Shown here: in pieces, positions 11,191-57,026 of the stretch
Layout of the letters: each line of letters opens with the position of its first letter
How positions within the stretch are numbered: the stretch's first letter is position 1
Assembly: GCA_012862575.1 (NCBI GenBank)
Contig: BLSF01000002.1
Span: forward strand, 930,001-994,000
Source: Parietichytrium sp. I65-24A
Taxonomy: Eukaryota > Sar > Bigyra > Thraustochytrida > Thraustochytriidae
Direction: 5' to 3'
DNA: 64,000 nt
Translations under genes and position numbers: made by a program
The notes under the pieces: generated by a model
Seen by the model: the letters and a program-made list of their open reading frames with translations, nothing else
Database searches by the model: none
What the model was told of the DNA's origin: nothing

Positions 11191-12710
11191 ATGAGCAAGA
11201 AGACCAAGGTGACGTACTTTTATAAGCCGGATATCGGCAGCGTGTACTATGGCCCAGGGGTAAGTGATTTTGGATGTGGAGCTGTGGACCCGCTCGACTC
11301 GAAGAATTTTGTGAGCGGAAGAACTAATCAGTGCTGGATGATTGGACTCGTTGTTGTTGGTAGCACCCCATGAAGCCTCAGCGGCTCAAGCTGACGCACC
11401 ATCTCTTGTTGACGTACGGGTTGTACCGAAAGATGGACGTGCTGCGGCAGCACGATGCAACCGCGGAAGAGCTTGAGAGGTTTCATTCGCACGAGTATGT
11501 GGACTTTTTGAAGCGAATCACGCCAGAGACTGAACACGAGTTTGAAAAAGTGATGGGCAAGTTCAAAGTCGGTCCAAACTCTGATTGCCCCGTGTTCGAC
11601 GGACTTTACAACTTTATGAGCAGCTGCGCTGGTGGATCTATCGACGCTGCCGTAAAGGTGAATCACGGGCTGTCCAACATGTGCATCAACTGGTCAGGTG
11701 GCTTACATCATGCGAAGAAAGGAGAAGCTTCCGGCTTCTGCTACATCAATGATATCGTTCTGTGCATAGTCGAACTTCTCAAATACCATCCGCGCGTTTT
11801 GTATATTGACATTGACATTCATCATGGGGACGGCGTGGAAGAAGCGTTCTATACCACCGATCGAGTGATGACTTGTTCTTTCCACAAGTATGGAGAATTT
11901 TTCCCTGGAAGCGGGGCTTACACAGACACTGGAGTTCGCGCGGGGAAGAACTACGCCGTGAATTTTCCTCTCAAGGATGGTCTGGACGATGCTGGGTTCG
12001 AATCAATTTTCAAGCCTGTGATCAATAGTATCATGGAGAGGTACCAGCCTGGGGCTGTCGTCATGTGCTGTGGTGCGGATTCGATCACTGGAGATCGTCT
12101 TGGTGTCTGGAATCTGTCTATCAAGGGCCATGCGAGCGCAGTAGAATTTGTAAAGAGCTTTGGTACCCCAGTTATCCTCCTGGGTGGAGGCGGTTACACA
12201 CCCCGCAACGTTGCTCGCTGCTGGGCCTACGAGACCGGTGTCGCTCTTGGCGAGCAATGCGACATGGAGAACAACATTCCTTGGAACACCTATCACAACT
12301 ATTTCGGACCAACTCACAATCTACATCTCGTCACGGACCCAAACATGAAAAACATGAATTCGAAGGCCTACCTGGAAAAGTACACCAACCTCATATTGGA
12401 AAACTTACGAAACGTTGACATTGCACCAAGTGTACAGTTCCAGGACGTTCCTTCGGATTTTTCAAACCCCGACGAGCGCCGCCGTGCCGCCGAGGATGAT
12501 GCTGACCCTGACATACGCTCTACAACAGAGCACACGAGGAGCCACGAGGCCGAGTTTTATGAGGAGCACAGCGAACGGGATCTCGCAAACTTTAGAAACC
12601 CCGCTGACGAACTCGACGAAAGCGAAGTCCAAATAGGCGAAAGTGAAGATCAGCCACGGCGGGAGCCTTATGAGAAGGGCACGGAGTGTGGCGGCTTCGT
12701 ACAAGAATAG
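11191..12710 (+). CDS. class I histone deacetylase (RPD3/HDAC1 type), one intron
   Basis: Exons 11191-11259 and 11364-12710 encode 471 residues. The zinc-dependent enzyme removes acetyl groups from histone lysines in the nucleus. Catalytic features are complete: GGLHHAKK with the paired His at 138-139, the metal-binding DIDIHHGDG (about 172-180), GADS, and [16 protein letters not shown] near the C-terminal end of the domain. An acidic tail of about 90 residues follows, as in HDAC1/2 and RPD3. The 104-bp intron (GTAAGT...TAG) sits in phase 0 between GPG and HPM. The start is ATG at 11191, giving [12 protein letters not shown] convergent paralogue with the same intron position follows 400 bp downstream. 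Confidence 0.93.
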
Positions 12711-13108: not shown

Positions 13109-14491
13109 CTAAAGTTTGTGATCCAAGTATGAACTTGGCGGAAGCTCCTGCATGGCAACGCTAGGAGCACCTTGCAGCTGTTGCAAATTTTGCAAAACAG
13201 TTGTCTTACACTTTTCCAGGTACTCCTTAGTGTTGGCGTTATGCATATTTGTTGGTGTGAGATGTATTTTGTGGTCAGGCTTGTAGTAGCCCGAGTATTC
13301 ATGCTCGGGAATGTCGTCTGAGATGTCCTCATCCAGTAAAACGGAAGTTTCGAAAGCCCAGCATCTCGCCACGTTGTTGATTGTATAACCCCCGCCGCCA
13401 AGAACAAGCATAGGGAGCCCGAAAGATTTTACAAATTTGACCGCATCGGCATGCCCACGAACGGAGAGGTTGAAATTTCCAAGCCGATCACCAGTCAAGG
13501 AGTCTGCACCGCATTGCAGAACGACAGCTCCTGGTCTAAACACCTCCATAATTTTGCGAATGACAGGGTTAAAAATCTTTGCAAAATCATTATCGGTCAT
13601 GCCCTCCTTGAGTGGCACGTTGACGCAATAATTTTTGCCTTTATCTGCCCCTGTTTCGTCGATGTTCCCCGTTCCTGGAAAAAAATCATTTCCATATTTG
13701 TGAAATGAACAAGTCATCACCCGGTCTGTGAGGTAAAAAGCTTCCTCTACGCCGTCGCCGTGATGAATGTCGATGTCAATATACAAAACCCTGGGGTGAA
13801 ACTTGAGGAGCTCCAGGATCGCAAGTACAATGTCGTTTACATAGCAAAATCCGCTGCCCTCAGCCTTTTTTGCGTGATGCAGCCCGCCTGTCCAGTTGAT
13901 AGCAATATCGCAAATTCCGTGATTAAGTCTAGCAGCCCCGTCTAAACTTCCACCGGAGTAGATGCTGCAAAAGTCAAACATGTCAGAGAATACCGGACAG
14001 TCCGGCGACTCGAGGTTGAACTTTACAGCCTCGCTAGACAGCGCCTTTGCAGTGTCGGGGGACGCGCGCCGGATAAAGTCAATGTATTCGGGCGAGTGAT
14101 ACTGCGCCAACTCCCCGGCCGTGGCCCGATGCGGGCGAAAGCAGTCCATCTTCCTGTACATCCCGTACGACAATACCAAGTTGTGCGTCAGCAGCAACCG
14201 CGCGGGCTTCATCGGATGCTACTCCCCCATTCCCATTCCCATTCCCAGTCGCCCATTTCGCCCATTTCGTCCATTTCACGCCACGTTCATTTTACCTAAA
14301 GTCAGCTCACTAAATTCCGCACATTCGACTCCGCTCCCCAGCCCACACTTCCCCACAGCTTTTTTCGCCAATTCTTCCCCAACCTTCCACGCCGCCAATT
14401 GGAACTTCTACCAACAACTTACGCCGGGCCCATAGTGATGCAGCGGGAAATCCGCGTCGTAAAAGTACGAAACTCGCTTCTTGCTGCTCAT
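13109..14491 (-). CDS. class I histone deacetylase (HDAC3-like), one intron
   Basis: Exons 14219-14491 have to be split: exon 1 is 14423-14491, the intron 14219-14422, and exon 2 13109-14218, giving 392 residues. Catalytic elements match the neighbouring [26 protein letters not shown] and [15 protein letters not shown]. The protein ends shortly after the catalytic domain, without an acidic tail, so it is shorter than typical HDAC1/2; HDAC3/HOS2-like is my best guess. The 204-bp intron (GTAAGT...AG) lies in phase 0 between GPG and HPM, exactly where the paralogue's intron lies. The intron contains CCATTC-type simple repeats (about 14225-14275). The ATG is at 14491 ([11 protein letters not shown]). 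Confidence 0.9.
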
Positions 14492-15934: not shown

Positions 15935-18900
15935 TTAAAATATACCAGGCGGCAGAAACTCGAGATCAATCGAGTCACGAAACTCGACGAGAAGAGACTT
16001 TAGACCATTCACCACCTCCTTATTCGCCCGGCCAGAGATCTCGGCGGCCCAATACTCTCCCAGCCTCTTAGCGCGTAGACGTTTCATCTCCTCGTCGCGC
16101 TCGGCGTGGTCGCCATAGAATACATCCTTATCCCTTGATCGATTTGAAGGACAGCTTGCTACATGACTGTGTGCAGCCTGACTGGTTGGCCCACAATTTT
16201 CAAGGCACCATGCGCAAAAGTAGGTTTTGCAACCATTCCCAAATTGATCGATGCACTGAACGGCAAAGCACGCGTCAAAGTCCACAAAGGCCTTCTTGCA
16301 GGAAGGGCACTGCAGAGTAAGGATCTCATTGATAATTTTCTTTCGGTGCAGAAGCAAGGATTGGTCGTCGATACTCTTCTTGAGTTCCTCCTCAAGCATT
16401 TGCTGGAAATTGCGCTGAAGACGGGCTTCTTGTCTGTCTGCAGCCACCTTGAGAAGCGTCTTCCAGTCTGGCTCCGTCAACAAAGCCGCGATCGAACTTG
16501 ACGGCAACAATTCTTGACACTCAGGCATGCAACATTGCAGTGTTCCGTCTAATGCGACTGCTTCCGGGTTGACGCCCCCTCTCACAAGGTTTGTCAAACA
16601 CTCCTTGCAAAAGCAATGCGCGCCGCTTCCACACGCGATCGTATTTTGCTCAAGACACTTATCCCAGCACGTCGAACAGTCACGTGTCTCAGGAGGTTCT
16701 TCAGTGAAAAACTCGTCTTGCAAGGCCTGGTTGGCCGTCGGCCGGGCGTAAGGATCATCGCTCATTAGACTCGAAATCAGAGCATTGCAGCCACTACCTA
16801 CCTCAGCGACCCCCTCCAGTAATTGCTTCAGAATCTTTCCACAAGCGTATATGTCCACAGCCGCAGTGACCCTATGTTGCGACCCGTCCCTCAACTCCGG
16901 AGCGAGATAGTCCAGTGTCACTTGGAGGTTAGTTGTTAGCGTGCGGCCATCCTTCTGCACACCGTCAAAGTCTCCCAGAACCGCGCGGAACGACCGGGTT
17001 AGGAAGATGTTGTGCGGTTTCAAGTCGCAATGGACGTGACCTGCCGAATGAATCTTGTTCAAACCCTGAAGTATATCCATGGCCAGCGACTTGCATCTCG
17101 AGATCTCCCTTGCCATCGGTGGAGTCGACTCGAGCCACACATTCAGGTCACCGTTCTCATAGAAGGGCATCACAATGCACCCGTGGTTCGCTTCGCGATC
17201 TAGAAATACACTTTCCACTCGAGCCACATTTGCATCTCGCAAGGAGGTTAGCACGGCACACTGCCGCAGAAAGCGCTTTTGGGCATCAGGGTTGGCAAGA
17301 TGGAAGGATTTGAGCACCTTTTGGGGTGCTGCCGCTGGACTCCCAACTGACACTTGTCCCTTCGGGATATGGACCACGTCGACCTGTCTTCCAGCGCTTA
17401 AAGAGCCCAGCGGTCTCACGACGATGAAGTCTCGCGCTCGAAAGCCTTCCAGCAGGACACCGCTCTTCTGCAGCAAATCCGCACCAGGCACATCCACCAC
17501 CCCAAGAACTCGAGTCCACTCGGAGCTGACCAACAGCTCTGGATAGTGCAACTCGGCTGCGCGCAGCAATCGTGCACGCTCTGCCACCAACCGACAGGAT
17601 ACTCCTCTCCACGTTTGCCGCAACTTTTTAGAGTCGGCCTCCAGCTCCTCTTTCCGGGTTGTCAAACTTCTGTCCTGGTCTTCGTCTCGTAAAATTTGCC
17701 TCTCGAGTTTGCGAATCGCTGAGTCAACATCATCATTGTCGTCCTCCAGGCCATGCAGGTTCTTTACGAGTAGCTTGAAGGCTTCAGTGGACGGCTCTTC
17801 GATCCCTGCCGCATAGAACGCCTGCAAAGCATTAAACTTGCTCACTTGCTCACGGACCCATGCGAGGAAGACTGACATCTCAGCATGAACGAAAAAGCAA
17901 ACAGCCTGCAGGGACTTTTCAATCTCCGCTTGAGGAAAGTCGATCTCGGGGCGATCCTCCTCCAAGAAAGTATACTCGCCTTCTAACGCATCGACTGCTT
18001 TCTTCAAGGACTGTTTTACTTCTTCCAAGCCATCTGCTCTTGAGACGACTTCGAAGGCATCTCGGTTACCGTCTTGGGACGCGACGCGTTTGAGCTGCAA
18101 AAGCGCTTCCTCGGATTTGGCTTGCCATTCTCGGGGGTTGTGGCGGTTCTTCCACTTTTCAAGAGACTCAAAGGCACCTCGAAGTTGAGCCATCGTCCTT
18201 GAATAAATTCCCCGAAAGCTCTCAAGTTTGAACGTCCCAAGCTCTGCACTGCTCCTGATATTTACAACCTCATTCTTAGTCAGCATGGCCTTCCACCGCT
18301 GCACCTCTTTTTCTGCGATGATAAGTGTTTCATTTGCCTTTTCCTCGAGAACCAGGGACACCTTTGCTCGAAGACTCTCCCGGGCGTCATTTCGAGCTTG
18401 CTTGAGTTTGATGTTGCTCTTCACCTCCTCCTGGAGCGACTTGAAGGCCGCTTGACTCTCATTCGCAGAACCGACTGCGGTGATAAAACCTTGAAATGCT
18501 TCTGTAGGGTCCCGCGTAAACTCGGCAGCGCAACACTCCAGCGCGGCAGCGGCTTTAGGCAACTCCACTTCGCCCTTTGCGGACCTACGTCGCCCAGCAA
18601 GATCAGCGTTCAAGCTTGCCAGCCGCGCAAAGAGCTTGACTGACTCCGTCCAAGGCACTGGCCCCTCTGCTTGTCTTCTGCGTCTCTCCACTTCCTCTGC
18701 TTCTTTCCTGAGTCTCTCCGCTTCCTCTGCTTCTTTCCTGAGTCTCTCCGCTTCCTCTGCTTCTTTCCTGCGTCTCTCCGCTCTTAAGAACTGCTCCTTC
18801 TCAAGGCGCTTTGCAGGGTCTTTGTTTCGGTCGATCTCTGTGCGAATTGACGGGTTACCTATATCATGACTGAACAAAAAGACATGAATTCGTCAGCCAC

Positions 18901-20094
18901 CAAGTCGGAGAAAGTTCAACATGAGACTAATTTCTTTTACCACACTGGTGTCAAAGTCACACGTACTCGATTGTAATCAGCGCTGTGTTTTTTTTCAACG
19001 CGCGGCCGATCGCTGATGCTCCCTCAGCGCCAATTCCATTAGCGAAAAGACTATTTCGTTACAAATAGACGTGAAATCGTCAGCCACCAAGTCCGAGAAC
19101 GTTTAGCAAGCTTCTAAACATTGTCGCCAAACCGGTGTCAAAGTCACGTACTACAACTGAATCAGCGCAGTGTTCTTCTCCAACGCGCGACCGATCGCCG
19201 ATGCTCCTTCATCGCCAATGTTGTTACCGCGAAGACTATCTCATTACAAAAAGACATGAAATCGTCAGCCACCAAGTTCGAGAAAGTTCAGCAAGAGACT
19301 AATATCTTTCACCAAACCGGTGTCAAAGTCACACATACCCCAATGTAGTCAGCGCAGTGTTTTTTTCCAACGCGCGACCGATCGCTGATGCTCCTTCAGC
19401 GCCAATATCATTCGAATGAAGACTATTTCGTTTTAAAGAGACGTGAAATCGTCAGCCACCAAGTCCTAGAAAGTTTTGGAAGGTGCTAAATCTTTACACC
19501 AAACCGGTGTCAAAGTCACACATACCACAATGTAGTCAGCGCAGTGTTTTTTTCCAACGCGCGACCGATCGCTGATGCTCCTTCATCGCCAATGTTGTTA
19601 CCGCGAAGACTATTTCATTACAAAAAGACATGAAATCGTCAGCCACCATATTCGAGAAAGTTTAGCACTGCTTTAAACTTTTACGCCAAACTGGTGTCAA
19701 AGTGGCGCGAAAACTGCCAAAGTCAGCAAGTAGTGCGTTCTTACGAAACTAGTGAAAGTCACGCCAGGTTTCGAGAAGCAGTGCTATAATCAGCGAGACT
19801 TGCTGTGATTCTGGAGAATGACTTACATCAACCAAAGGAGAGTTTGGTTTCTCTCGAGCTTGGCGGCGATCTTTTCCGCCCCATCTGGTCCCGCGTTGCA
19901 ACCCGAGTCAAAACTGCGTGAAAGGAAAGCACCATTAGAACCGACGTCTTCCGCCTCTCAACACGCTGCTGAAAGAAAACTCACAACACACCTTGTTCCC
20001 CTCGGTCGATCGCTTCAAGACCTTCGTCCAACGAGTCCACCTTCCAAAGCCTCATCTTGCCCGCTCCAACTTTCAACAAGTGGTAATAGCCCAT
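15935..20094 (-). CDS. LRR / coiled-coil / protein kinase / RING-like multidomain protein, seven exons
   Basis: Seven exons in transcript order: 19985-20094, 19827-19913, 19526-19609, 19339-19422, 19152-19235, 18967-19050 and 15935-18869. All junctions are phase 2 and the total is 1,155 residues. Residues about 37-190 are ribonuclease-inhibitor-type leucine-rich repeats, one per internal exon (pattern NNIGDEGASAIGRAL). A coiled coil with three 10-residue repeats RKEAEEAERL follows, then a long helical region. A protein kinase spans about 657-898: HCDLKPHN (791-798) and APE are intact, but DFG reads DFD (811-813) and the glycine loop is poor. A RING-like finger (C909, C912 onward) and a second Cys/His module (1032-1084, CPSC...FCAWCLENC...H) end the chain. 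This suggests a sensor kinase coupled to ubiquitin ligation, which is inference. Confidence 0.8.
18691..18780 (-). repeat. 30-bp coding repeat, three units
   Basis: Three almost identical 30-base units at 18691-18720, 18721-18750 and 18751-18780, with a degenerate fourth at 18661-18690. They encode the decapeptide RKEAEEAERL in the coiled coil of the LRR-kinase protein. A period of ten residues is not a heptad multiple, so it probably extends a charged single helix or a skipped coiled coil. Confidence 0.85.
18870..19609 (-). repeat. tandem exon-intron repeat encoding single LRRs
   Basis: Four units of about 187 bp, each an 84-nt exon (one 28-residue LRR) plus an intron of 97-103 bp, all joined in phase 2. 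The units alternate. Exons 19526-19609 and 19152-19235 carry LRGNNIGDEG, and their following introns share one sequence type. Exons 19339-19422 and 18967-19050 carry IGAEG versions with a second intron type. The alternation indicates duplication of a two-exon block of about 374 bp. Introns and exons are both highly similar, so the amplification looks recent or homogenised. A partial intron-like copy lies inside the 217-bp intron upstream (19610-19826). Confidence 0.85.
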
Positions 20095-51943: not shown

Positions 51944-52700
51944 CTTCAGATGCTTCCTTTCGATGTTCTAACTTGCGCCATGTGCGCTCGCTCGTATCGC
52001 TTGTATTGCTCGTATTGCTCTTGCGACGCTTTGCCTAATTTCCTTTCCTGCATTTCATGCGCCAACTGAGCGGACTCTACGCACTAAGGCTAAGCCTCCC
52101 GTATTCAACAATGCAAGCATAGAGATCCGTTTCAGAGGAACTTTAATCTATTCACGATCAGAGAGCTGTTCCTTAACGGCTGGGCGAGCTCTACCTTAGT
52201 AGTTTGGGTAGAAAATCATAGGCTGCGGCGTTAAGATCGGCGTAATGAGGGATGAGGGAGGATGAATGCGGTTCGCAACATTGAAGACTTTGAAGTGGAA
52301 CCAATAATGAATGCGAACAAGACGAAGGCTGTTTATTCCATTCAATACAACTATCTCCCTCCATCTCGTTGCCGCGGGCGCCCTGTGAGCAGCACTGGCA
52401 AAGTGTCAAAGTGCGATCATCCGCCATCCATTATTCTATCCATTGCAAAGAGAACTCACATGTGGCATGAACCTCATGAACCGCTTCCAACGTCTAGTAA
52501 GGTGCGCTACCGGAGGCATGGGTCGCAACTAGGAAGTGTGAGCAGCAACAACATAGAGCAACGGGGCAAATTTACACCGTGCATGCAGTCAGAGTGTGTC
52601 AGGTTAGCGACTGTTGAGCGCGTTTCGCTTGTTTCGCTTCAGTGAACACAGACTTGGGAGTCCATCGATAGTTGGACGCGGAACGAGGCGTCAACTCACA

Positions 52701-52735
52701 GGTCGCAGGTCGCAGGTCGCAGGTCGCAGGTCGCA
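52701..52735. repeat. 7-bp minisatellite, five units
   Basis: Five perfect copies of GGTCGCA, ending 25 bp before the WDR19 start codon, so probably in its 5' UTR or core promoter. Confidence 0.95.
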
Positions 52736-52760
52736 GCGTTGGTTGGGAGATAAAAGCAGG

Positions 52761-55700
52761 ATGAAGGAGCTCTTTCAGGTGGGCGAGAAATACCACGGCA
52801 AGGGCCAGGTTCTCGCCAAGTGGCAGCGAGACGGGAGTCATGTGGCATCCTGTGGTGCGAACGGTCTGATTGAGATTTTCGACCGCCATGGCCAACCTGT
52901 GGAGGAAATTGGGCTGAAAAACTCGAGCCCGGTGATCTCCATGGACTGGGACAAGGACGGGGAAATCCTCGCGATTCTGCAAGACCGCATCGCCACAGTG
53001 TCGCTCTTTGACATGAACAAGAGGAAATTGACACACCTGGACACAAATCTCAAAGATGCGAGGTTTCTTGCGTGGTCTCGGACGGGGCCGCAGCTCGCCA
53101 TTGGAGGGGGCAATGGTTCCCTCTTGCTCTACAGAAAAGACACCCTGCGCCAAGAGACAGTCGTTGGCAAGCACTCCGGAGCTATCGTTTGCGGAGCTTG
53201 GAGCGAGTTTGGCAATAGCCTCGCCCTGGGCTCTGAAGACAAAACTGTATCAATCAGCAACAGCGAAGGCTCCACAGAGGAGCAGTTTCAATGCAGTGGA
53301 AGGCCCGTGAATGTTGCATTTGCGCCGCCAAAGTCTTTGTCGCACAAAAGCGACAAAGGAGAGGAGACCAGGCAATGGCTTATCGGGGTTTCCACCAAGT
53401 CTGAAACATTGGCCATGTTCGCGCCTGGAGCCGACCCGATTGAGATGCAGTTCCAATCGAGGTACGGAAAGCTTGTGAACTTTGGCTGGCTCTCAAACGC
53501 GTCAATTGCGATCGGGTTTACCACCGGCTATGTGATCGCCATCTCCACAACTGGGAGCAAAGTCGGCGAAGAACTTTTCTCGGAAAGAGTGCATCGCACC
53601 TCGTTAACTGATCTGGTGGTGTCCAGAAGCTTGATGCGCGTGGCCTCGTGCGGGGACAGTACGGTGAGAGTGGTAGATGCTCAAAAGTGGCAAGAGGTTA
53701 AGAGCGACACCATTACACTCGACAACGAAGAAGGCCAACTAAGCCAAATGTATTGGACCTTGGATGGCCAAATTCTTTCCGTCACAACCAAGAGCGGTAT
53801 CTTGTACAATTTTCTCACCAAAATGCCAATGGTGAACGTTGCGAACGGTCCCAACATTGCCTACCTCAGCTCGCTCCGCGAGATTTCAATCGTCAACGCC
53901 CTCGAAATGCAGCGGGGAATCAGAGTTACGCCCATCAAGGTGCCTACTCAACTAGAACCGAGCTTTCTGGCGCTCGGAGTCGACCACATCGCTGTCGGGA
54001 TGAACAACCGTGCCTGGTTTTATCGATTTCAAGGCAATGAAGACCCTTCGAAGACGGACGAGTTGGTTCAAGAACAAGAATTTCTTGCCAGCGTGCAGAC
54101 CTTAATTCTGAATGACACCGTGTTCGCCGCGCTATGTTCTGGAAGGGTCTACCTCCAGCGAATCGAGAAAATTCCCGGTGAAGAAAATGCTAGCGCCGTC
54201 TTCCCGGAGCCTGGCGGTCCTGACATTACATGCATTGCACTGACCAACAACTTTTTGATTCTCGGGGACTGTGAAGGGGGGATCAACTTCTTCTCGTTGC
54301 ACGATGGCACCATGATTTCTGGGTCTGAGCTTCGTCACGAGTGCGGCATAAAAAGGATTTATTCCAACAACTCTGGAACGAGGATCATCTTCCTCGACGA
54401 AGCTGGGGGCGGCTTTTTGTTCAACCCGATCGATGCCCAGGTCCTAGAAATTCCGGACCTCTCTGCCGAAACCGTCAACGTCATGTGGGATGGCTTAGAC
54501 CCGTTCGTGTTTGTGATCGCCGATCCACACGAACTCAGCACCTATGTTTACTCACCACTCACGATTAACGGTCCGTGCGTTACGAAGATTGGCCCTCTGG
54601 AGGTTCTCGAGAATGGGGACATGGTCACTGAACCGCTCTCTACACAAATGCCCCCAGGATACACGAGCATCGTGTCCTTTGGAGGTATTGTGACGTGCCA
54701 AACGCCTGGCTCGCAGTTGTCCAAAGTCATGCTTGGATCTCACGAGGCTTTACACAGTCTTGAGAGGACTCTCGAAGCAAGTCGGCAAAAATTTTTCCAG
54801 AGTCTAGCTCTTCGTAAGCTTCAAGATGCATGGAACATGGCGCTCGCTGTGGAGTCCCGCCCGTACTGGCTTGCTCTCAGTGGGCGGGCGATGGAAGAGC
54901 TCAATGTCGAGATGGCAATTCGCGTTTGGAGGAAACTCGGCGATGCGGGGATGGTCATGGCGTTGGAGAGAATCCGTTACATAGAAGACAAGTACCTTCT
55001 CGCAGGAAACATTGCTGCGCTCTTCGGGGACTATGCTCAGGCTCAGGAATTGTACCTCCTCTCGCCGTCCCCAAAAGCAGCTCTGGATATGCGCAAAGAT
55101 TTATTGCACTGGGAGCAAGCCCTCAAGCTCGCCGAAACAGTGGCACCGGAACAGATACCTCAAATTTCCGAAAAGTATGCTCAGCAATTAGAGTTCAAAG
55201 GTGAATACAGAGCTTCGCTTGATCTATACCAGGCTGCACTTGACGGAGCCGAGCGCACGCGAGTGTCCGCGCGAGGCAAGAGAGCAGACTATGATGAAGA
55301 GGCAAAGGAGATTGAGGCTGCTAATGACGGCGCGCTTGCCTCGGTAGAGGCAATCAAGAAGCAATGCCTTGCAGGTATTGCCAGAACAACCCTTCGTGTC
55401 GGAAACATTCCAAAGGGGGTTGCTCTCGCAATTGAGTCCAAGGACCCTGGGCTTTGCAAGGAATGCGCGGATATTCTGGTATCCGCCAAACAATTTGCTG
55501 ACGCCGCAACGCTGTACGAAAATGCCGGCGAATTTGAAGAGGCTGCAAGCATCTACATCAAGGCAAAGAATTTCCTTGCGGCACAACCTTTGCTAGCAAA
55601 AGTCACCGCGCCTCGACTTCACCTCCAGTTTGCAAAGGCAAAGGAAGCAGAGAAGGACTATCGCACCGCAGTGGCAGAGTATGAAAAAGGAAACGACCTT

Positions 55701-57026
55701 GACTCCGTCGTTCGCGTATCGCTTGAGCACCTGCGTCAACCTGAAAAGGCATTTGCCATCGTGCGGAAACATCAGAGCTCACAAGGAGCCGAAATGGCTG
55801 CTCGATATTGCCAGAGCGTGAACGACTTTCGCGGGGCGATCGAATTCTTGCTCATGGCAAAGCGATCTGCGGATGCATTCGAGCTTGCAACCACACACGA
55901 TACGATGGAAGTGTTCGAGTCCGCCTTGGGCGCGGAGGGAACACCGGAAGAGTACAACAATATTGCGAGATACTACGAGTCCAAGCAGCACCACGGCAAA
56001 GCGGCCGAGTTTTATGCAATTTGTGGCCAGTTCCACAAAGCACTCAAGCTTTACCTCCAGTCCAACGAGATCGAGAAGGCGATCGACGTTGTCGGCAAAG
56101 CTCGGTCAGACGTTCTCACTCACACCTTGATCGACTTTTTGATGGGAGAAACCACCGGCGTGGTTCAAGATCCCGTGCATATTTTCAGACTGTACATGGC
56201 ACTTGGAAATTACCCTCAAGCCGCCAGAACCGCAATGGTCATTGCCCATCAGGAGAGGGAGAACGGGAACTACAGGTCTGCGCATAGCACGCTGTACGAA
56301 ACCCATCGTGAGCTGGAGTCGCGAAACATCCGGGTGCCACAGAGCCTTCGTTCAGCATTTTTGCTCTTGCACAGCTACCTTCTTGTCAAGAAGAGAATCA
56401 AGGTGGACGACCACCTTGGTGCAGCTCGCTTGCTCTGCCGTGTAGCGAAGAACATTTCCAAATTCCCAAGCCACACCGTTCCGATCCTCACCTCCACCGT
56501 GATTGAGTGCCAAAGAGGTGGTCTGAAGAACACCGCTTTTGAATATGCTACCCAGCTCATGCGGCCAGAGAACCGCACCGGCTTGGACGCCAACTACAGG
56601 AAGAAGATCGAGACCATCGTACGCAAGAGGGGTGGTGCAGAGCTAGAAGACCTTCCTGAAATCCGCTCCGAGTGCCCTTACACCGGGGAGATGGTCCCCA
56701 ACTATGAGCTGATGTGCCCCACAACAAAGAACCAAATTCCGTTCTGCATTGTCACTGGGCGCCACATGGTCTCAGAGGACTGGTGTTTTTGCCCGGTGAG
56801 TAAGATGCCCGCACTTTATTCCGAATACGTCAACTATCTTCAGAATGTGAAAACCGATGACGAGCGAGTCGATCCGATCCTCGGCAAACCTGTCTCTGTA
56901 ACTGATCTCCGCAAGGTGGATGATCCAAAGGCGTATCTCGACGCTTACTCTGCCCCCATGGATGATGAAGACAATGATGACGACGATGGCCCGCCAAGCC
57001 TCCCACCTCGCATCCAGCAGTCCTGA
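52761..57026 (+). CDS. WDR19: WDR19 / IFT144, intraflagellar transport complex A subunit
   Basis: 1,421 residues, single exon. WDR19/IFT144 is a core IFT-A subunit needed for retrograde transport in cilia and for membrane-protein entry. The N-terminal half carries two WD40 propellers (from about residue 15 to 650; for example HVASCGANGLIEIFDRHG and FGWLSNASIAIGFTTGYV). The C-terminal half is a long TPR/alpha-solenoid (AQELYLLSP, AATLYENAGEFEEAASIY, ALKLYLQSNEIEKAI). The end has the family's zinc-binding region: CPYTGEMVPNYELMCP, CIVTGRHM and WCFCP. Its length is close to the human protein (1,342). The first in-frame ATG (52761) opens MKELFQVGEK; the frame runs further upstream without ATG. 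The acidic tail DDEDNDDDDG is unusual. Confidence 0.93.
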   Translation: MKELFQVGEKYHGKGQVLAKWQRDGSHVASCGANGLIEIFDRHGQPVEEIGLKNSSPVISMDWDKDGEILAILQDRIATVSLFDMNKRKLTHLDTNLKDARFLAWSRTGPQLAIGGGNGSLLLYRKDTLRQETVVGKHSGAIVCGAWSEFGNSLALGSEDKTVSISNSEGSTEEQFQCSGRPVNVAFAPPKSLSHKSDKGEETRQWLIGVSTKSETLAMFAPGADPIEMQFQSRYGKLVNFGWLSNASIAIGFTTGYVIAISTTGSKVGEELFSERVHRTSLTDLVVSRSLMRVASCGDSTVRVVDAQKWQEVKSDTITLDNEEGQLSQMYWTLDGQILSVTTKSGILYNFLTKMPMVNVANGPNIAYLSSLREISIVNALEMQRGIRVTPIKVPTQLEPSFLALGVDHIAVGMNNRAWFYRFQGNEDPSKTDELVQEQEFLASVQTLILNDTVFAALCSGRVYLQRIEKIPGEENASAVFPEPGGPDITCIALTNNFLILGDCEGGINFFSLHDGTMISGSELRHECGIKRIYSNNSGTRIIFLDEAGGGFLFNPIDAQVLEIPDLSAETVNVMWDGLDPFVFVIADPHELSTYVYSPLTINGPCVTKIGPLEVLENGDMVTEPLSTQMPPGYTSIVSFGGIVTCQTPGSQLSKVMLGSHEALHSLERTLEASRQKFFQSLALRKLQDAWNMALAVESRPYWLALSGRAMEELNVEMAIRVWRKLGDAGMVMALERIRYIEDKYLLAGNIAALFGDYAQAQELYLLSPSPKAALDMRKDLLHWEQALKLAETVAPEQIPQISEKYAQQLEFKGEYRASLDLYQAALDGAERTRVSARGKRADYDEEAKEIEAANDGALASVEAIKKQCLAGIARTTLRVGNIPKGVALAIESKDPGLCKECADILVSAKQFADAATLYENAGEFEEAASIYIKAKNFLAAQPLLAKVTAPRLHLQFAKAKEAEKDYRTAVAEYEKGNDLDSVVRVSLEHLRQPEKAFAIVRKHQSSQGAEMAARYCQSVNDFRGAIEFLLMAKRSADAFELATTHDTMEVFESALGAEGTPEEYNNIARYYESKQHHGKAAEFYAICGQFHKALKLYLQSNEIEKAIDVVGKARSDVLTHTLIDFLMGETTGVVQDPVHIFRLYMALGNYPQAARTAMVIAHQERENGNYRSAHSTLYETHRELESRNIRVPQSLRSAFLLLHSYLLVKKRIKVDDHLGAARLLCRVAKNISKFPSHTVPILTSTVIECQRGGLKNTAFEYATQLMRPENRTGLDANYRKKIETIVRKRGGAELEDLPEIRSECPYTGEMVPNYELMCPTTKNQIPFCIVTGRHMVSEDWCFCPVSKMPALYSEYVNYLQNVKTDDERVDPILGKPVSVTDLRKVDDPKAYLDAYSAPMDDEDNDDDDGPPSLPPRIQQS

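Follow-up and report, generated by a model that had tools for sequence, protein, structure and literature searches.

Genes in which single exons encode single leucine-rich repeats (LRRs) are of a kind already known from the ROCO genes of brown algae, from Tetrahymena, and from the NOD/NLRC exons of vertebrates. Here we describe such a gene, predicted on the minus strand of a 64,000-nt stretch of DNA (the window; positions 930001-994000 of contig 2 in one assembly of a 42.5-Mb, 172-contig genome), together with similar arrays found elsewhere in the same genome. Stretches extracted from the genome around similar units are labelled L001-L030, and contigs are denoted by C and a number, so that the window lies on C2.

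Brown-algal LRR-ROCO genes were reportedly treated by Zambounis in 2012 (cited in Teng 2024). According to the accessible parts of the published accounts, these genes contain tandem phase-2 exons with one LRR each, which undergo exon shuffling and carry positively selected sites on the concave face (Teng 2024, PMC11378527). The exons are 72 bp long, the repeats comprise 23 residues, and LRR-ROC-COR is the sole ROCO architecture, and LRR-only arrays are considered as possible reservoirs (PMC11378527). In Tetrahymena, the accessible text reports tens of thousands of 90-bp LRR exons with an extreme phase-2 bias, variable unit number, and ectopic recombination (Xiong 2019, PMC6564038); the youngest LRR genes are concentrated in subtelomeric and pericentromeric regions, and an association with LINE-like elements is described (PMC6564038). 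In most human NOD and NLRC genes, one 28-residue LRR is encoded per frame-preserving exon, as stated in the available part of the source (PMC6642158). In vertebrate NOD/NLRC and NLRP genes, the exon border falls at a fixed place inside the beta-sheet, again as far as the available parts go (PMC6642158; for NLRC5, PMC3848420).

As far as these partial sources allow the comparison, the family described here shares phase-2 single-LRR exon arrays with the brown-algal ROCO genes and also, at other arrays of this genome (L023, C35, and C4), the LRR-ROC-COR architecture. It differs from them in having exons of 84 nt, LRRs of 28 residues, a partner of kinase type, and a TIR domain following ROC-COR. 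With Tetrahymena it has in common very many fixed-length phase-2 LRR exons, the differences being the exon length (84 vs. 90 bp) and a single pool of units in front of two named partner modules, which the accessible text does not describe for Tetrahymena. With vertebrate NOD/NLRC exons it shares a 28-residue LRR per frame-preserving exon; the vertebrate genes, however, belong to the human NLR family and in the accessible text are not described as a homogenised genome-wide cassette pool (PMC6642158).

The window gene itself is not an NLR, as neither NACHT nor NB-ARC matched its last exon (E 0.01), nor did they match nine downstream frames elsewhere (E 0.05). It is not an LRR-ROCO gene either, since it carries a kinase instead of Roc/COR, ROC-COR being found at L023, C35, and C4. 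The variable lymphocyte receptors of lampreys are lymphocyte antigen receptors assembled somatically, whereas the cassettes described here are seen in one assembly. What is different in the present case is an 84-nt version in a genome without light-harvesting matches, the presence of kinase and ROC-COR-TIR partners behind similar units, and a predicted binding-face block that is nearly uncoupled from its unit. No chlorophyll a/b-binding match was found in the genome (the control was positive in one cyanobacterium), and elicitin gave no match in the genome, with no control giving a signal either. We recognised no description of 84-bp LRR exon arrays in a protist in the literature searched, subscription papers being mostly outside its reach.

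Gene model and genome-wide family

The window gene occupies 20094..15935 on the minus strand and has seven predicted exons and six introns, every intron being in phase 2 (Table 1). Under the predicted splicing, the joined frame is open over 1,155 codons plus the stop. All four 84-nt exons (4/4) correspond to one 28-residue LRR each, and one isolated unit scores 22.4 bits with LRR_6, the cut-off being 23.4. By repeat length and the motif LxxLxLxxNxL, the predicted units are of the ribonuclease-inhibitor (RI) type, the class to which a 28-residue repeat with this motif is assigned. Counterparts of exon 2, that is, 84-nt exons ending in GNKTLQQL or similar, head several other arrays. The original prediction of one 28-residue LRR per 84-nt exon with all junctions in phase 2 is borne out by the gene model and its open joined frame, given the predicted splicing. 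Because there is one LRR per exon, the junctions are in phase 2, and exon and intron are copied together, the number of units is free in principle to vary without loss of frame, as had also been proposed.

We infer the splicing of the 84-nt exons from the sequence. The window and 28 loci yield 220 pairs of successive units, and in none of them does the frame stay open when the intron is read through: 215 meet a stop, and five shift the frame. Intron lengths are distributed over all three classes modulo 3 (88, 68, and 64). A set of 310 LRR-like segments was picked irrespective of splice sites; in these, the commonest base is conserved at the acceptor A and G in 96% each and at the donor G and T in 96 and 94%, respectively, the range at the ten positions preceding the acceptor being 58-85%. 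As the introns are unreadable in frame and the splice-site bases are conserved, we judge the predicted exons to be credible. Intact units, with AG, GT or GC, and no stop, account for 283 of 312 LRR-like segments of the window and 28 loci; they were located with an 84-nt model that assumes phase 2, so that their phase outside the window is no independent test.

Searching the genome with the array DNA yielded 130 matches, 40 of 105 candidate places being scored. A 35-base pattern of the exon core with at most three mismatches matched the genome 455 times (257 and 198 on the two strands), the reversed-pattern control gave 0, and the first 100 of the 455 places were listed. Other such arrays are thus present elsewhere in the genome. 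The original prediction had covered neither this family nor the strand of the gene, the domains of its last exon, the ROC-COR-TIR partner at another array, or the variation of the predicted binding face. From the genome, 20 stretches, then eight smaller ones, and then one of 1 kb were extracted, a sample that represents part of the family and was selected mostly by likeness to the window. The window and 28 loci comprise 35 runs of units, split at gaps >1 kb; two of the runs are one C88 array cut by the end of L029. Judging by sequence, the window gene belongs to a family of predicted LRR receptor-like genes that extends across the genome and is built from interchangeable phase-2 cassettes, each consisting of an 84-nt exon and an intron of ∼102 nt.

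Near contig ends, clusters are found more often than expected: 13 of 28 lie within 10 kb of an end, with 3.5 expected on the same contigs (the coordinates were copied by hand, and the sample is non-random). A subtelomeric location is not supported, as neither strand of L001-L028 contains two-copy TTAGGG or TTTAGGG telomere repeats beside the arrays, and the excess is explained equally well by repeats breaking the assembly. In the 15 loci scanned, 5S rRNA genes lie near LRR arrays in L020 (4814-4933, plus strand) and L022 (2110-2211, minus strand), and the last bases of L013 resemble a motif that we take to be the 3' end of 18S rRNA. At ∼100-122 kb of contig 88 (L029-L030), there is a tandem cluster of three long and two shorter matches to the window last exon, preceded by LRR arrays.

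In the window array, Tandem Repeats Finder (TRF) reports periods of 187 (4.3 copies, score 1013) and 372 (2.2 copies, score 1108), in agreement with the 187/374-bp periodicity claimed earlier. Exon and intron have been duplicated together, as both show matching pairwise identities. For exons, these are 90.5% for units 1-3, 87.8% for 2-4 (over 82 columns of a gapped alignment), 88.1% for 1-2, and 78.6-79.8% for the other three pairs; for the following introns, 85.1, 88.3, 86.3, and 74.5-83.2%, respectively, with the last intron taken 3 nt short. The claimed alternation of two unit types is therefore seen locally in the window as dimers, but it is mosaic, since the likeness of units 1 and 2 comes close to that of 1 and 3, and a set of four is too small for statistical proof.

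The stronger claim, that a two-exon block of ∼374 bp is the general unit of amplification, did not survive. In 27 runs with at least four units from the window and the first 20 loci, the lag-2 identity was higher than the lag-1 identity in 13 runs and lower in 13, with one tie, and this split rules out the dimer as the general unit of repeat growth. Exact repeats at other loci have steps of one unit (352 nt at period 186 in L012; 327 nt at period 187 in L018), two units (315 nt at period 370 in L016), or larger blocks (531 nt at period 1,597 in L024; 1,064 nt at period 1,065 in L029). In the window array, there are no exact repeats of ≥60 nt, and the units are 77-88% identical; hence "recent" duplication fits other loci, not the window array. 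The adjacent exact duplications (1,064 nt at 1,065 in L029 and 406 nt at 407 in L024) could be assembly errors.

Variation on the predicted binding face

The entropy of residue positions was calculated for 210 distinct exons, obtained from 234 matches of which 220 were kept (14 were dropped as too unlike the consensus or containing a stop). The highest values are 3.76, 3.89, 3.47, 2.86, and 2.46 bits at positions 1, 2, 4, 25, and 27, respectively, followed by 2.26 at position 7. The x positions of LxxLxLxxNxL form the exposed concave face of an LRR. All five peaks fall within the six x positions (24, 25, 27, 1, 2, and 4), position 24 being low (0.78 bits); the chance that the top five of 28 positions fall inside a given six is 6/98,280 (calculated by hand).

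We then compared the proportions of nonsynonymous (pN) and synonymous (pS) differences in 2,634 pairs from 217 units with intron divergence <15%, the motif determining the codons beforehand and the split codon being excluded. These figures are pairwise counts, not a codon model, and the bootstrap was done over units, which are non-independent. For the five motif-defined codons (24, 25, 1, 2, and 4), pN is 0.530 vs. an intron divergence of 0.123, a ratio of 4.30 (4.11-4.51); a circular choice of codons from the same data would raise it to 5.07. The ratio of the same pN to pS of the other codons is 3.09 (2.68-3.50), and the other codons have pN/pS of 0.51 (0.41-0.63).

The 12-nt block formed by codons 1-4 varies largely independently of the rest of its unit. 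Across loci (33,679 pairs, 266 units, one of them a C98 unit chosen because its block matched), the correlation with intron identity is r 0.052 for the block and r 0.470 for the exon core; within loci, the values are 0.181 and 0.571, respectively. Six neighbouring nucleotides reach 1.71-1.97 of 2 bits in the block, and the bases next to them are near-invariant. Exact block twins were found for 49 units; in 28 of them the twin is about as close by introns as any unit, and 16 of the 49 have introns that are >0.05 closer to some other unit. There are 20 identical 14-nt blocks across loci, whereas shuffling gives a mean of 1.2 and a maximum of 5 in 200 shuffles. Part of this sharing is due to shared descent, as the introns beside these 14-nt blocks (0.787 and 0.785) are somewhat more alike than random ones (0.740 and 0.731).

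Eight pairs have an intron divergence of ≤5%; on average, their members differ by 0.019 in introns, by 0.088 at the variable sites, and by 0.021 over the remaining exon. An example of a possible patch is L018.3. It is identical to its neighbour L018.4 at 99 of the upstream 100 nt, all of the last 57 exon bases, and all of the next 100 nt, and the two differ at 6 of the first 27 exon bases, three of them inside the block. The first 27 bases of L018.3 match a contig 98 unit at 26/27, with introns only ∼72% alike (62/86; 71/99), and its block is matched exactly over 20 nt on a contig other than its own. The L018.4 block has no match outside its own array. In addition, Asn codon 3 shows linkage at its third base with the third bases of codons 2 and 4; no linkage was found with the first base of codon 4 or with the third bases of codons 0 and 6, the latter two being less variable and giving less power.

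Partner modules and neighbouring features

The last exon of the window gene encodes a protein kinase domain (Pfam Pkinase, E 2.8e-27, 96.2 bits vs. a cut-off of 31.7) in which the HCD and DFD motifs are present. The exon matches neither Roc nor COR at E 0.01. In viral contigs, a search for relatives of this kinase module gave 42 pattern matches, none of which was confirmed. The coiled-coil-like start of the exon contains a 30-nt tandem repeat (4 copies, 18664-18782).

The kinase is followed by a cysteine-rich tail, the C/H pattern of which is conserved in six paralogues with 50-84% identity to the window. The pattern resembles RING1 and RING2 of RBR ligases. Among solved chains, the tail matches one at E 0.028, presumably HOIL-1/RBCK1, and TRIM21 RING chains at E 0.069 and higher. 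A weak IBR_2 match was found in one paralogue tail (E 0.013 or 0.0074), and none in the window tail itself; a profile search of the PDB retrieved kinases only. The tail is thus possibly, on thin support, RING/RBR-like. Its single-sequence AlphaFold model was unusable (pLDDT, the predicted local confidence, of 43). The sole profile match of the window tail, the acidic region of EF-1 beta (E 0.011), was rejected as being at chance level.

The downstream scan covered two modules, the kinase-type and ROC-COR. A kinase-type module directly follows eight of the 35 runs, on C2, C30, C8, C140, C45 (matched in two pieces), and three times on C88 (the third copy is cut by the stretch end). ROC-COR or its remains also follow eight of the 35: C12, C4 (in two frames), and C35 carry the module at almost its full length, C107 has its ROC-COR part only, C75 gives a weak match (25% identity), and short remains are left at C21, C11, and C26. 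The 853-aa partner in L023 matches Roc (1.8e-18), COR-A (7.4e-14), and TIR_2 (1.9e-8), and among solved structures it comes closest to a ROC-COR-type leucine-rich-repeat protein (4wnr) and to LRRK2 chains. Matches into its TIR part (approximately residues 714-799) were found on C35, C4, C73, C93, and C19, with weaker ones on C42, C48, and C28; some of them may be unrelated TIR proteins. The downstream frames in L026 and L028 have no Pfam match.

The post-array exons of the window, L023, and L009 start in the same phase with half an LRR, and the units show no detectable sorting by partner module: for 51 of 105 units (14 loci), the closest unit outside the locus belongs to the same partner class, compared to a permuted mean of 49.3, and a value of 51 was reached in 753 of 2,000 permutations.

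Table 1. Predicted features of the window gene (positions in the window)
Feature	Position	Strand	Description
Exon 1	19985..20094	-	110 nt, ATG at 20094, ends in phase 2, donor GTGAGT; start codon and donor choice inferred
Exon 2, first-LRR / N-cap-like	19827..19913	-	87 nt, acceptor GCAG, donor GTAAGT
LRR unit 1 exon LRGNNIGDEGASAIGRALEKNTALTTL	19526..19609	-	84 nt, flanked by AG and GT
Intron after unit 1	19423..19525	-	103 nt
LRR unit 2 exon LHSNDIGAEGASAIGRALEKNTALTTL	19339..19422	-	84 nt, flanked by AG and GT
Intron after unit 2	19236..19338	-	103 nt
LRR unit 3 exon LRGNNIGDEGASAIGRALEKNTALIQL	19152..19235	-	84 nt, flanked by AG and GT
Intron after unit 3	19051..19151	-	101 nt
LRR unit 4 exon LFANGIGAEGASAIGRALKKNTALITI	18967..19050	-	84 nt, flanked by AG and GT
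Last intron	18870..18966	-	97 nt, acceptor TCAG
Last exon	15935..18869	-	half-LRR start, coiled-coil-like region (by eye), Pkinase, cysteine-rich tail (possibly RING/RBR-like), stop included
Whole repeat array	18874..19703	.	period 187/372; query for the genome search

Beside the LRR gene, there are two facing frames, at 11364-12707 (plus strand) and 13112-14218 (minus strand), both of which we take to be histone-deacetylase-like. The window also contains long intronless frames. An intronless WD-repeat-like frame of 1,472 codons lies at 52608-57023 (plus strand); it resembles WDR19/IFT144, which would imply a cilium or flagellum. Elsewhere in the genome, at 8.5-22.5 kb of contig 66, there is an open frame of 5,583 codons in which the PfaA model has four ketosynthase-like matches, so that it may encode a giant polyketide synthase; PfaA itself has no genome match above the cut-off.

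A candidate recognition repertoire and its rivals

We consider it probable that the arrays constitute a germline repertoire of LRR cassettes for candidate recognition proteins, which would evolve through unequal exchange, the conversion of short tracts, and diversifying selection. The number of repeats would change when similar introns undergo unequal exchange. Short-tract ectopic conversion would carry patches of the binding face between loci, frame and introns being homogenised, and diversifying selection would keep the patches different. The ligands bound by the LRR face would be varied, and most likely non-self or allelic self/non-self; signalling by the C-terminal module would rely on phosphorylation and possibly on ubiquitin, or else on GTPase/TIR activity. 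Since hundreds of such units differ chiefly on the predicted binding face and are followed by at least two kinds of signalling module, an immune-type repertoire is suggested, comparable to those of brown algae and Tetrahymena.

Several observations weigh against this reading. The five concave codons have pS of 0.561 and their own pN/pS of ∼0.94, i.e. not exceeding 1; they look saturated in both measures, and the excess of pN holds only relative to introns and to the other codons. Synonymous diversity in the block is raised for several residues, with 0.47 for Asn codon 3 compared to 0.14 for Asn codon 20; since even this mostly conserved Asn codon is affected, selection on residues alone does not explain the block. 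Three of the eight pairs with near-identical introns are identical in the exon as well. L018.3, the clearest patch case, is a single unit, and its search returned a further place, on C16, with two mismatches. Moreover, 29 of the 312 LRR-like segments lack intact splice sites or contain a stop, and 19 of the 35 runs have no close intact module of either kind, although three of these show fragments or, in the case of C107, have the module at a distance of 2 kb. Because of these partnerless runs and of degenerate tails, as at L021 and L026, many loci may be pseudogenes or reservoirs.

A neutral or decaying tandem-repeat family, undergoing concerted evolution, composed mostly of pseudogene loci and having no role in recognition, would account for the 19 runs without a partner in the stretch examined, the ROC-COR remains at C21, C11, and C26, and the excess of clusters within 10 kb of contig ends (13 of 28 vs. 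3.5). We find this distinctly unlikely: the other-codon pN/pS of 0.51 and the kept splice sites show constraint, pN of the concave codons is 4.3 times the intron divergence, and 283 of the 312 LRR-like segments are intact. It is also rather unlikely that we are dealing with a scaffold or adhesion family, the repeats of which would fit varied endogenous partners (e.g., ciliary, or in cell-cell contacts) and not non-self. Such a role would suit the intracellular-type kinase module in the last exon, and the immune role of the family is a hypothesis; however, a homogenised frame with a hypervariable face, duplication of units, and TIR/ROC-COR partners would be more usual of recognition families.

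The diversity of the block could also arise by hypermutation-like targeted mutagenesis of codons 1-4 and not by conversion and selection. The six adjacent nucleotides with almost maximal diversity (1.71-1.97 of 2 bits) next to near-invariant bases, the raised synonymous diversity inside the block, and the linkage of the third base of Asn codon 3 to those of codons 2 and 4, and not 0 and 6, could all be produced in this way. Still, we hold targeted mutagenesis to be very improbable, given that identical 14-nt blocks recur across loci (20 vs. 1.2 expected) as if copied, that an exact 20-nt counterpart of the L018.3 block exists on another contig, and that three of the eight pairs with near-identical introns show no change in the exon. 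Both conversion with selection and block-targeted mutation fit the block data, and we favoured the former.

A more specific proposal, about which we are doubtful, is that patches of ∼12-27 nt are swapped between loci, by block conversion or block-targeted mutagenesis, so that the patch and not the exon would be the unit of diversification, and several hundred germline cassettes would feed at least two signalling chassis. If this were true, and held also in mitotic growth, clones would differ in their repertoire.

Considered as a candidate germline repertoire, the family adds a further case of one LRR per phase-2 exon beside brown algae and Tetrahymena, at the repeat size of NOD/NLRC. Two different signalling modules behind similar units are undescribed in the accessible parts of the papers used for comparison. 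A single 187-nt unit offers near-neutral, constrained, and diversified sites for direct comparison. As introns, frame, and predicted binding face share this unit, the generation of recognition diversity in unicellular eukaryotes is directly testable here.

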